32,335 bases of DNA from Verrucomicrobiota bacterium (GTDB lineage Bacteria > Verrucomicrobiota > Verrucomicrobiia > Verrucomicrobiales > Akkermansiaceae). The notes below the pieces were generated by a model that searched no databases, was not told where the DNA came from, and saw only the letters and a list, made by a program, of their open reading frames with translations. A program made the translations under genes and the position numbers. The DNA lies in contig JAGWXY010000019.1 in NCBI GenBank assembly GCA_018969605.1, positions 1 to 32,335 of the forward strand. Direction: 5' to 3'. Below, piece after piece: positions 27,927 through 32,335 of the stretch (the stretch's first letter is position 1; each line of letters begins with the position of its first letter).

Positions 27927-28101
27927 TTTAACCCGAAATCCGAAGTCGAAATATCATTCGAATCATTTTAACCACTGATTTCGCAGATTTACTGATTATC
28001 GAGGAGCGCAATTTTTGTGATTTTTCTTTATCTGTGCAATCTGTGTAATCTGTGGTCAAAGCCCTCTTTGTTTGCATTTCAACTTCCGAATTCGGGTTAA
28101 A
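27927..28101. repeat. nested inverted-repeat element (MITE-like), 175 bp
   Basis: The outer arms 27927-27952 and 28076-28101 are inverted copies matching at 23 of 26 positions (TTTAACCCGAA at each end). Inner arms 27967-27989 and 28038-28060 match at 19 of 23 (core GACCACAGATT or a close variant). The right inner arm is part of a three-fold CTGTG-containing phrase (ATCTGTGCAATCTGTGTAAT). The element is strongly AT-rich compared with the flanking genes, has no ORF, and ends 10 bases before the stop of the M23 peptidase gene. It may serve as terminator for both convergent genes. Confidence 0.7.
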
Positions 28102-28821: not shown

Positions 28822-30702
28822 TCAGCGCAAACCCTTGAGCGCTTCAAGGATTGCGGCGCGCATGGGCGGGCTGCTCAGGTTGCCGAGATGGCCGCCATTC
28901 GGAAACATCGTGAGTTTTTTGCCGGGAAATGTCGACTTGAGCCACGCGGCATCGGAGGGGCCAAGCAGGAAATCATTGTGATTCGAAACCACGCGGATCT
29001 TTGAATTTGAGCGCAGCTGTGACGATTTGTTGCGCAGGTCGGCTTCGTAAATGATTTGCGAAGCGGTGATGCCGCGGGTTGCGTAATACGGCACGACGAG
29101 TTTGTGGAAATAATCGCTGTAAGACCAGCGGCTGATTTCATCATAGGCGCTGTTGCGGCTCCATGAGGATAGCGGCGCTTGGATCTTGCCGAGGTTGTGA
29201 CGCGACTGGCTGTTGAAAATCGCATCGCGCAGGATGAAACGGAAGTTGAGGCCGATGAGGTATTTCGATTCATTGCCGCCAAAGGTGACGGGCGGAGTCT
29301 TGGCACGCTGGCCGGGCGCGAGCATCATCAGTGCCTTTGTCGCGGTTTGATTGATGCGATCGTCGCGCTCCTCTTGCGGCCATTGAAGAGGTGCTTTGTA
29401 AAAAGCATCGAGGAATCCGGCACCGGTTCTGAGATTCACCGGGCTGTTGATCGCCACATAGCGATCGGCAACGAGCAGGTCCCGGCTTTGGGATTTTTCA
29501 CGCGCTGCGATTTGCAATGTTTGGAATCCACCCATCGAAAGTCCGATGATCGCACGCTTGCCGAAGCGTCCCGGGTGACGCTTTTCCAAATCGTTGTTGA
29601 TCGCACTGAGCGCGATGAGCAGGTCATTGCTATCGACCGGCGCATAGGCCGGAAGCGCTGCGGTCGATGCGTTGCTCATGAATTCCGGGTGAAACACGCT
29701 GCTGATCGTGACCACCGAAAATCCATTCGCGTATAGGTGCTCAGCCACCGCGAGTGCGGTGAGCGAAAGGCGGTGCGAGCCGAGGCCAGGCATCACAAAC
29801 ACCAATGGCGCAGCATCGCGTTGCAGCCAGCAGTTGTACTTAAGCGACTTGCCGGTCGGGTCGATGCGCACGCTCATCGTGCGTCCTTCGAAAGGAAACG
29901 ACGATGACTCGCAACGGATCGCGGCGACGCCGAGAGTTTCGAGCGTCGCTTGGTCCGCCGCTTCATAATGGCGGTGATTGGTGAAATTCGCATTCGCGAT
30001 GCCGGAAATCGTGGCCTTGGCCAGCACATAGGAATCGGCCTCGGCGCTCAGCAAGCGCGCCGCATCATCGGCCGATTCGCTCAAGCGATTGAAGGTGCAG
30101 AAGCCCGAGACACCGCGTACCGCCGTGATGTAGGTCGTAGGTTCGGCAGCCTTATCGGCGATGAGCCCGGCAGTTTCAGCATCGCTGCTCGGCCCGAGAA
30201 ATGGCAGCACGACGAAATTTTGCGGCTTCCAACCCCATTGGCTGAAGGTCTGGGCAAAGTCCGCATCGGATCGGCCAACCTTCCAGCGGCTCGCCACATC
30301 AAAGAGCCCGCCGACACCGGCAGTCGTGTTGCAGAGAAACCGCAGCGACTCATCGCCCGCACCGGACCAGCGACCTTGCAACGCGTGGTTCAGCAAGCGG
30401 CCCGGATAAGTGATGTTGCGCGAAAAATTTCTCACCGATGCGCGAGCCGGCGCCGGGACCAAGCCGCGGTAGCCGGCCGAAAGCGGATGCAAAAATCCGT
30501 GCATGAGCCCGCGGTTGAATTCCCACACGCCGCGGTTGAAGGGCTCGATCGGATCCGAGAGCGACTCCGGCATCAACTCATCGCGCGGCACCTGCGCGTG
30601 ATTCACCGATGGCGCGGTGCACGATGAAAGCATCGCAAAAGCCAAGGCCCCGCATGCCAGAGGCGAACGGCGGGCCTTGAATTTGATGTGCGATTTTTTC
30701 AT
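28822..30702 (-). CDS. MlaA (VacJ)-type lipoprotein fused to an alpha/beta hydrolase
   Basis: The protein has 626 residues from the ATG at 30702. A lipoprotein signal ends in LSSC (C28). Residues about 47-245 are an MlaA/VacJ domain: DPIEPFNRGVWEFNRG, VRNFSRNITYPGRLLNHALQ, FLCNTTAGVGGLFDVAS, DFAQTFSQWGW and FVVLPFLGPSS. Residues about 265-626 are an alpha/beta hydrolase: VFVMPGLGSHR strand, nucleophile elbow GLSMGG with S389, acid D577 in SNHNDF and H605 in NGGHLGN. MlaA is about 250 residues on its own; it removes phospholipids from the outer leaflet of the outer membrane. The fused hydrolase, with complete triad, could be a phospholipase or esterase acting on the same lipids; that is inference. 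One uninterrupted frame. It lies 17 bases downstream of pyruvate carboxylase. Confidence 0.88.
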   Translation of the reverse strand: MKKSHIKFKARRSPLACGALAFAMLSSCTAPSVNHAQVPRDELMPESLSDPIEPFNRGVWEFNRGLMHGFLHPLSAGYRGLVPAPARASVRNFSRNITYPGRLLNHALQGRWSGAGDESLRFLCNTTAGVGGLFDVASRWKVGRSDADFAQTFSQWGWKPQNFVVLPFLGPSSDAETAGLIADKAAEPTTYITAVRGVSGFCTFNRLSESADDAARLLSAEADSYVLAKATISGIANANFTNHRHYEAADQATLETLGVAAIRCESSSFPFEGRTMSVRIDPTGKSLKYNCWLQRDAAPLVFVMPGLGSHRLSLTALAVAEHLYANGFSVVTISSVFHPEFMSNASTAALPAYAPVDSNDLLIALSAINNDLEKRHPGRFGKRAIIGLSMGGFQTLQIAAREKSQSRDLLVADRYVAINSPVNLRTGAGFLDAFYKAPLQWPQEERDDRINQTATKALMMLAPGQRAKTPPVTFGGNESKYLIGLNFRFILRDAIFNSQSRHNLGKIQAPLSSWSRNSAYDEISRWSYSDYFHKLVVPYYATRGITASQIIYEADLRNKSSQLRSNSKIRVVSNHNDFLLGPSDAAWLKSTFPGKKLTMFPNGGHLGNLSSPPMRAAILEALKGLR

Positions 30703-30719: not shown

Positions 30720-32335
30720 TCAAGCGGTCACCAACTTCACTAGCAGGTCGTCGCTGTCGACCTGATCGCCCTTTTGCACGAGGATTTCGCCAATCGTGCC
30801 GTCGGCTGCGGCGCTGACCGTGGTAAGCATCTTCATCGCTTCGAGCACAACGAGCTTGTCGCCGGCCTTCACTTCCTGGCCGGTGGAGACGGCGACCTCG
30901 GTGACCATGCCCGGCATCGGCGCACAGGCTTGGGCCGGATTGCCGGGCTCGCCCTTGACGCGGGATGCCTTCGACACCGATTTGAGCGAGTTGTCGAGCA
31001 CCACCGATTCGCGCGGCATGCCGTTGAGCTCGTAGAAAAGCGCGCGGCGGCCGGCGGAATCCGCTTCGCCGATCGAAATGAGCTTGATGATGAGGATCTT
31101 GCCGGGGTCGATCTCGACCTCGATTTCCTCGCCGATTTGCAGCCCGTAAAAGAACGCGCTGGTGGGCAAACTACTAAGGTCATCGTACTTCGCGCGGAAC
31201 GCATTGAAGTCGGCAAACACCTGCGGGTACATCAGGTGCGAGTAGAGGTCGTCGTCGCTGGCCGGGCGGCCGAGTTTTTTCGAGAGCGTTGCGCGGGTTT
31301 CGACGAGGTCGACCGGCTCGGCAAGCTCGCCGGGGCGCTTGGTGGTGGCCTTTTTGTTGCCAAGCACGACCTTCTGAACATCGGCTGGCCAGCCACCATC
31401 GGGTTGGCCGAGTCCGCCGGAAAGCATGTCGATCACCGATTCCGGGAAGTCGATCGAGCCGGGCTTGAGCTTTGGCACATCGGCCGCGCGGATGCCGCGG
31501 GTGACGAGGAACATGCACATGTCGCCGACGACTTTGGATGATGGCGTGACCTTGACGATGTCACCAAAGAGTTGGTTGACCTCGGCATAGGTGCGGGCAA
31601 TTTCGCGCCAGCGGTGGCCGAGGCCCATCGCGTTGGCTTGCTCGCGAAGGTTCGTGTACTGGCCGCCGGGCATTTCGTGTTCGTAGACTTCGGCGGTGCC
31701 GGCGCGCGGCGCGGAGTCGAAGGGTTTGAAAAAGCCGAGCACCTCCTCCCAATAATCGGAGAATTCGTTGAGCGAGTCGAAGTCCAGCCCCGGATCGCGT
31801 TCGGTTTTTGCGAGTGCGGCCGAAACCGAATTGAGGTTCGGCTGCGAGGTTGAGCCCGACATCGATGCGATGGCGAGGTCGACGATGTCGACGCCGGCAT
31901 CGGATGCAGAGAGCACGGAGGCGGCATTGAGGCCGGAGGTGTCGTGCGTGTGGAAATGGATCGGAATGGCGATTTCCTGTTTGAGCGCGGCGACCAGTTT
32001 TTCCGCGGCCATCGGTTTGCAAAGGCCGGCCATGTCCTTGATCGCAAGGATGTGCGCGCCCATGCGCTCAACCTCCTTGGCCTTGGCGATGTAATACTTG
32101 AGCGAATACTTGTCGCGCTTCTCGTCGTTGATGTCGCCCGTGTAGCAAATCGCTGCTTCGCAAAGGACCTTGCCGTGCTCGCGCGTGGCCTCCATCGCGA
32201 CCTGCATGTTGGGCAGGTAATTGAGCGAGTCGAAGATGCGAAAGATGTCCATGCCCGAATCCGCCGCATGCTTGACGAAACCGGCGACGACATTGTCCGG
32301 GTAATTTGAATAGCCGACCGCGTTGGATCCGCGGA
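30720..32335 (-). CDS. pyc: pyruvate carboxylase, C-terminal part (carboxyltransferase and biotin carrier), 5' end outside window
   Basis: The frame is open to the window edge, giving 538 C-terminal residues. It starts within the carboxyltransferase domain (RGSNAVGYSNYPDNVVAGFV, then GMDIFRIFDSLNYLPNM and AICYTGDINDEKRDKYSLKY). HFHTHDTSGLNAASVLSASD carries the metal-binding histidines. The pyruvate carboxylase C-terminal allosteric/linker region follows, and the last 70 residues are a biotinyl domain with VVLEAMKMLTTV, whose Lys carries biotin. The enzyme makes oxaloacetate from pyruvate and bicarbonate to refill the TCA cycle. The order carboxyltransferase then biotin carrier in one chain, with pyruvate-type motifs, favours pyruvate carboxylase over oxaloacetate decarboxylase alpha, although the N-terminal biotin carboxylase cannot be seen. 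Confidence 0.92.
   Translation of the reverse strand, partial: RGSNAVGYSNYPDNVVAGFVKHAADSGMDIFRIFDSLNYLPNMQVAMEATREHGKVLCEAAICYTGDINDEKRDKYSLKYYIAKAKEVERMGAHILAIKDMAGLCKPMAAEKLVAALKQEIAIPIHFHTHDTSGLNAASVLSASDAGVDIVDLAIASMSGSTSQPNLNSVSAALAKTERDPGLDFDSLNEFSDYWEEVLGFFKPFDSAPRAGTAEVYEHEMPGGQYTNLREQANAMGLGHRWREIARTYAEVNQLFGDIVKVTPSSKVVGDMCMFLVTRGIRAADVPKLKPGSIDFPESVIDMLSGGLGQPDGGWPADVQKVVLGNKKATTKRPGELAEPVDLVETRATLSKKLGRPASDDDLYSHLMYPQVFADFNAFRAKYDDLSSLPTSAFFYGLQIGEEIEVEIDPGKILIIKLISIGEADSAGRRALFYELNGMPRESVVLDNSLKSVSKASRVKGEPGNPAQACAPMPGMVTEVAVSTGQEVKAGDKLVVLEAMKMLTTVSAAADGTIGEILVQKGDQVDSDDLLVKLVTA

Follow-up and report, generated by a model that had tools for sequence, protein, structure and literature searches.

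In Pseudomonas aeruginosa, mislocalised phospholipids are reportedly taken out by the MlaA-family protein MlaZ and broken down by MlaY (PMC12569750, PMC11131202; further facts on MlaYZ are drawn from PMC10474453). MlaY has been described as a lipase without which cardiolipin degradation is blocked, and its catalytic triad has been published as S187, D388, and H415 (PMC11977310). The MlaA protein of Escherichia coli has a C-terminal tail (residues 226-251) that recruits MlaC (PMC10245069). The idea of coupling extraction to hydrolysis is already known from Pseudomonas in the form of MlaYZ.

Here, we describe a gene in which relatives of MlaZ and MlaY are joined in one polypeptide. It lies on contig JAGWXY010000019.1 of a Verrucomicrobiota bacterium of the family Akkermansiaceae (GenBank assembly GCA_018969605.1); the whole stretch that was analysed, positions 1 to 32,335 of this contig (32,335 nucleotides), is called the window. 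New are the single-polypeptide form, the reversed order of the two parts, the spread through the phylum, and the near-exclusion with MlaC. The words “fusion” and “fused” are absent from PMC10665443, PMC11131202, and PMC10474453, and the founding MlaYZ paper (Guest et al. 2023) may mention fusions.

Domain architecture of the fused protein

The fused MlaZ-MlaY gene occupies 28822..30702 on the minus strand and forms a single open frame of 626 residues, with the ATG at 30702 and the stop codon at 28824-28822, whereas stops break the frame on the plus strand of the same interval. The signal peptide is closed by the lipobox L25-S-S-C28 (30619..30630, minus strand), which would provide the lipoprotein anchor and is present in most close relatives as well.

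Residues 49 to 229 (30016..30558, minus strand) match the MlaA family (Pfam ID PF04333) with an E value of 3.3e-48 and 164 bits against a cut-off of 25, covering profile positions 2 to 185 of 195. This MlaZ-like half, which by homology is the phospholipid-extracting part, also matches solved E. coli-type MlaA chains (PDB IDs 5nuo and 8i8r) and has 34% identity to P. aeruginosa MlaZ over 157 residues. It is followed by a linker of about 55 residues (230-284; 29851..30015, minus strand). In the alignment, the linker and the hydrolase occupy the end of the fusion that corresponds to the MlaC-binding tail of E. coli MlaA, an arrangement that would suit a diverted hand-off of the lipid. This argument is weak because the long E. 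coli tail is likewise missing from verrucomicrobial MlaA proteins encoded next to MlaC, and the tail is therefore not a general feature of the MlaA family.

The C-terminal part, from about residue 285 to 626 (28825..29850, minus strand), is an alpha/beta hydrolase domain and a predicted MlaY-like lipase. The match to Abhydrolase_6 (Pfam ID PF12697, residues 301-612) reaches 27.1 bits against a cut-off of 26.3, which is weak on its own, and the hydrolase assignment is secured by the homology to MlaY. Here, BLASTP gives 26% identity to the P. aeruginosa protein over 344 residues (E value 3e-29), and the profile-profile comparison with hhalign gives a probability of 100 and an E value of 5.6e-57 over 337 columns, which firmly places the domain among the relatives of MlaY. 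The predicted nucleophile S389 (motif GLSMGG; codon 29536..29538), the predicted acid D577 (codon 28972..28974), and the predicted base H605 (motif GGHLGN; codon 28888..28890), all on the minus strand, align with S187, D388, and H415 of MlaY, respectively, and are invariant in 40 of 40 aligned fusions. The Fusobacterium hydrolase has a Glu at the column of D577. A profile search of solved structures with the hydrolase returned weak alpha/beta hydrolase matches only (E values above 0.002), and an AlphaFold2 model of the fusion, for which the input was limited to the window protein and one close relative (L022), has a pLDDT of 30 and a pTM of 0.22, too low for use.

A preliminary description of this DNA had already proposed an uninterrupted frame at this place, a lipobox, complete MlaA blocks, and an alpha/beta hydrolase with an apparent S389-D577-H605 triad. 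Translation confirms the frame and assigns it to the minus strand, which had been left unstated, and the lipobox reads LSSC with C28. The nearly end-to-end coverage of the PF04333 profile agrees with the complete MlaA blocks and disposes of the case, considered at the time, of a protein with no MlaA match, while the triad residues lie where they had been placed.

Two-gene relatives outside the phylum

The tblastn search of plasmids with the fusion as the query found adjoining hydrolase and VacJ (MlaA) genes in P. aeruginosa and two Skermanella, as well as adjoining unannotated open reading frames for the hydrolase and MlaA in Fusobacterium. Plasmid searches with the window hydrolase and with P. 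aeruginosa MlaY returned the identical six records, and the MlaA gene is adjacent in all six. The 453-residue P. aeruginosa hydrolase has S187, D388, and H415 at exactly the published numbers, and we therefore identify this pair as PA3238 (MlaY) and PA3239 (MlaZ). On the Fusobacterium vincentii record (L054, 2749-4789), from the Fusobacteriota, mlaY and mlaZ follow each other in this order, overlap, and are both unannotated.

Conservation and selection

Full-length, single-frame copies with 89 to 91% identity are found in two other genomes. Within the genus, 27 of 61 genomes match the fusion, nearly all at full length in one frame, and it is absent from the other 34; with about half of the genus lacking the protein, it is not essential. 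The dN/dS ratio against the two close copies is about 0.11 overall, about 0.06 for the MlaA part, 0.12 to 0.13 for the hydrolase, and 0.11 to 0.25 for the linker. Purifying selection thus acts on the whole joined protein, the linker included, and most strongly on the MlaA part. Sampling long MlaA frames across the phylum showed the hydrolase behind MlaA in all 20, and the fusion-length frames include some from single-contig and few-contig assemblies (G143, G177, and G233). The MlaA-hydrolase fusion is confirmed as a real, conserved protein and not an assembly artefact. A scan of genome contigs yielded one relative, and a scan of viral contigs yielded none.

Some copies are interrupted. In one genome (G010:C155:1044-2899), the fusion is split into three overlapping frames, owing to assembly indels or a decaying gene. 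Three others (G301:C39, G204:C9, and G079:C16) each have one in-frame TAG or TGA in the hydrolase domain, which could be a sequencing error, a pseudogene, or something else.

Distribution in Verrucomicrobiota and near-exclusion with MlaC

The preliminary description had raised the question of how widespread the architecture is. Our survey covered 388 Verrucomicrobiota genomes, where the hydrolase was counted from strong matches only. MlaA is found in 153 of these genomes, MlaC in 47, and the MlaY-like hydrolase in 106. All 106 hydrolase genomes have MlaA, and there is no genome among the 388 with the hydrolase but without MlaA. A fusion-length frame carries the hydrolase in 94 of the 106 genomes; the remaining 12 comprise 10 adjacent gene pairs, mostly overlapping and in the order mlaZ-mlaY, and two cases at contig ends (G216 and G423).

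Of the 47 genomes that have MlaA but not the hydrolase, 44 have MlaC, against 1 of the 106 genomes with the hydrolase (Fisher P value of 1e-33, which is descriptive and ignores relatedness). The association of the hydrolase with MlaA is obligate, and MlaC is nearly excluded, in these 388 genomes. G233 is the only genome of the 388 with both the fusion and MlaC, having a short mlaA in a cluster with mlaC and mlaE and the fusion elsewhere. Both pathways coexist in P. aeruginosa as well. With its canonical mlaE-mlaC-mlaA cluster (G233:C1:1960572-1963828) and the fusion (2986607-2988328), G233 is a natural organism for genetic comparison. Two further genomes (G330 and G370) have an MlaA that stands alone, with no MlaC or hydrolase close by, a possible third partner arrangement.

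Evolution of the pairing

In the tree of MlaA domains, the verrucomicrobial MlaA domains linked to the hydrolase, whether fused or split, stand apart from the MlaC-linked ones, and the MlaZ proteins of Pseudomonas, Skermanella, and Fusobacterium group with other proteobacterial MlaA proteins. The trees of the N-terminal and C-terminal domains largely agree, with matching groups in the hydrolase tree. In the hydrolase tree, the split pairs have one set of fusions as their closest neighbours, and at least one fusion or fission must therefore have taken place within the phylum. A topology that unites all MlaA domains linked to the hydrolase in one clade is weakly rejected (p-AU of 0.034, for a group chosen after seeing the tree), so the MlaA-hydrolase pairing may have more than one origin. 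That one lipase family was paired with MlaA independently, with the genes in opposite orders, is possible but not established.

Genomic context

The only PF04333 match in the window's genome is the fusion itself, and no other mla gene is found among the flanking genes scanned, in agreement with the preliminary description, which had reported none in the window. The search for mla partners and pldA that it had suggested gave no match to MlaC (Pfam ID PF05494), MlaE, or PldA (Pfam ID PF02253) in this genome, which is 98.7% complete in 150 contigs, so that absences are not absolute; E. coli controls were positive each time. PldA, which had been offered as an analogue, is a poor one, being an unrelated beta-barrel enzyme. 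A PldA homologue is ruled out as the identity of the protein, since PF02253 has no match in the fusion protein, nor in the window's genome and ten relatives. LpxC is present in the window's genome, which makes LPS probable.

Upstream, a biotin-containing carboxylase gene (PYC_OADA by Pfam; 30720..32252, minus strand), which is not part of the system, ends 17 nucleotides before the ATG of the fusion, and the same neighbour is found in seven relatives (L003, L004, L005, L007, L008, L012, and L022). The two genes are possibly co-transcribed. The downstream neighbour, likewise not part of the system, is an M23 peptidase-like envelope gene (Pfam ID PF01551; 28112..28795, minus strand), which occurs at this place only in the closest relatives L003, L004, and L022.

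Further downstream, the window has an intergenic inverted repeat (27927-28101) with 26-nucleotide arms of 88% identity, which contains ACCACAGATTACACAGAT, with a minus-strand copy of this 18-mer at 28039-28056. The 18-mer has 17 copies in the genome at up to 2 mismatches (0 for the reversed control), often no more than about 115 bases from a contig start, and is a dispersed repeat that probably breaks the assembly.

The fusion is unmatched in the genomes G001, G004, and G313 of the same genus and in G065, G081, and other genomes of genus g2 of the same family, several of which are complete or nearly so. G001, G004, G313, and the genus g2 genomes also have no MlaA, MlaC, or hydrolase match where searched. 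G004 has LpxC, MlaE, and MCE and lacks both PldA and the fusion.

Proposed function and alternative explanations

The fusion is probably the MlaZ-MlaY pathway in the form of a single polypeptide, which would extract and hydrolyse mislocalised phospholipids with no shuttling back. Judging from the lipobox, the protein would be exported, lipid-anchored at C28, and sited in the outer membrane. The MlaA domain, by its homology, would provide a channel leading phospholipids misplaced in the outer leaflet to the periplasmic side, where the lipid would pass through the short linker to the tethered hydrolase and not to MlaC. The S389-D577-H605 triad, conserved and homologous to that of MlaY, would then cleave the ester bond, and fatty acids together with lysolipids or headgroups would be freed in the periplasm for re-use. 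The hand-off from MlaZ to MlaY in Pseudomonas is itself a proposal. The preliminary description had suggested extraction and hydrolysis in one protein, and this part stands with the homology of both halves to MlaZ and MlaY; it had missed the Pseudomonas precedent, the distribution, the reversed order, and the near-exclusion with MlaC. More tentatively, and with doubt slightly outweighing belief, we propose that much of the Verrucomicrobiota may keep its asymmetry with a single extract-and-cut lipoprotein, in which the MlaA pore would open straight into a tethered lipase, with no shuttle, inner-membrane pump, or ATP, and which would substitute for the MlaC-dependent route.

Acyltransferases, too, can have the alpha/beta hydrolase fold, and the named hydrolase families are matched weakly, so that the enzyme might move an acyl chain of the extracted phospholipid to an acceptor in the envelope (lipid A, a lipoprotein, or a glycan) and not to water. 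We regard this as unlikely, as the nearest characterised relative, MlaY, is described as a lipase needed for cardiolipin degradation (PMC11977310), and conservation among the neighbouring genes concerns the biotin carboxylase and no acceptor-related gene. It is also quite improbable that the protein still belongs to a transport route, in which a multi-MCE tunnel protein or another bridge would receive intact lipids or lysolipids from the MlaA half, and the hydrolase would have an editing or regulatory role only. MCE proteins are indeed found in 11 of 11 genomes checked, the window's genome has a 531-residue frame with three MCE matches, and several fusion genomes keep the MlaE permease. However, MlaC is missing from 105 of the 106 hydrolase genomes, MlaE is unmatched in the window's genome, and G004, in which the fusion was not found, has MCE and MlaE all the same, so neither tracks the fusion.

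A different substrate for the hydrolase, for example an environmental ester or polymer, with the MlaA domain acting mainly as a membrane anchor, would fit the generic Pfam-level annotation and the weak profile similarity to cutinases and esterases. That the hydrolase never occurs without MlaA in the 388 genomes, that both domains are under strong purifying selection with the MlaA domain the most constrained (dN/dS of about 0.06), and that the same pairing exists as separate genes in three other lineages make this explanation very unlikely. Finally, the split two-gene forms in some relatives and the three frames of the G010 gene could suggest an assembly or annotation artefact joining two genes, an error for which the preliminary description had allowed. 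This reading has a negligible probability and is refuted by the fusion-length frames in 94 genomes and by the purifying selection across the linker; the claim of a fused gene also survives in view of the copies with 89 to 91% identity and the low dN/dS.

As a natural fusion that is conserved in the phylum and nearly exclusive with MlaC, the protein gives independent support, of the Rosetta-stone kind, to a lipase being fed directly from an MlaA channel, and it offers a one-gene test system for the MlaZ-MlaY hand-off. It also bears on the debate about the direction of Mla transport, as an MlaA protein ending in a lipase would serve removal and not delivery. The fusion is furthermore a candidate asymmetry system for LpxC-bearing bacteria without MlaC and PldA.

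Comparison with known systems

The fusion shares the lipobox and the complete MlaA domain with E. coli MlaA (Pfam ID PF04333; PDB IDs 5nuo and 8i8r). The E. coli protein ends in the MlaC-binding tail, whereas the fusion has a predicted lipase in this place and no MlaC was found in its genome. PldA, also named OMPLA (Pfam ID PF02253), removes surface phospholipids by hydrolysis, the outcome also proposed for the fusion, but it is an unrelated outer-membrane beta-barrel, and the fusion has no PF02253 domain.

The split mlaZ-mlaY pairs of other Verrucomicrobiota (L085-L093 and L096) match the fusion in their two domains and in domain order and also lack MlaC in the genome. They encode two polypeptides, with the hydrolase gene having its own start, in contrast to the one polypeptide of the fusion.

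The closest described system is MlaZ-MlaY (PA3239-PA3238) of P. aeruginosa, which has in common with the fusion the pairing of an MlaA-family extractor with an alpha/beta hydrolase lipase and the same triad, at an identity of about 34% to MlaZ and 26% to MlaY. P. aeruginosa has two genes, mlaY and then mlaZ, an order also found in Skermanella and Fusobacterium, whereas the fusion is one predicted lipid-anchored polypeptide with the opposite order, MlaZ and then MlaY. P. aeruginosa also has the MlaA-MlaC-MlaBDEF route, unlike the window's genome, which is without a recognisable MlaC or MlaE. In the fusion and in MlaYZ alike, the hydrolase is linked to an MlaA-family gene in all data searched.
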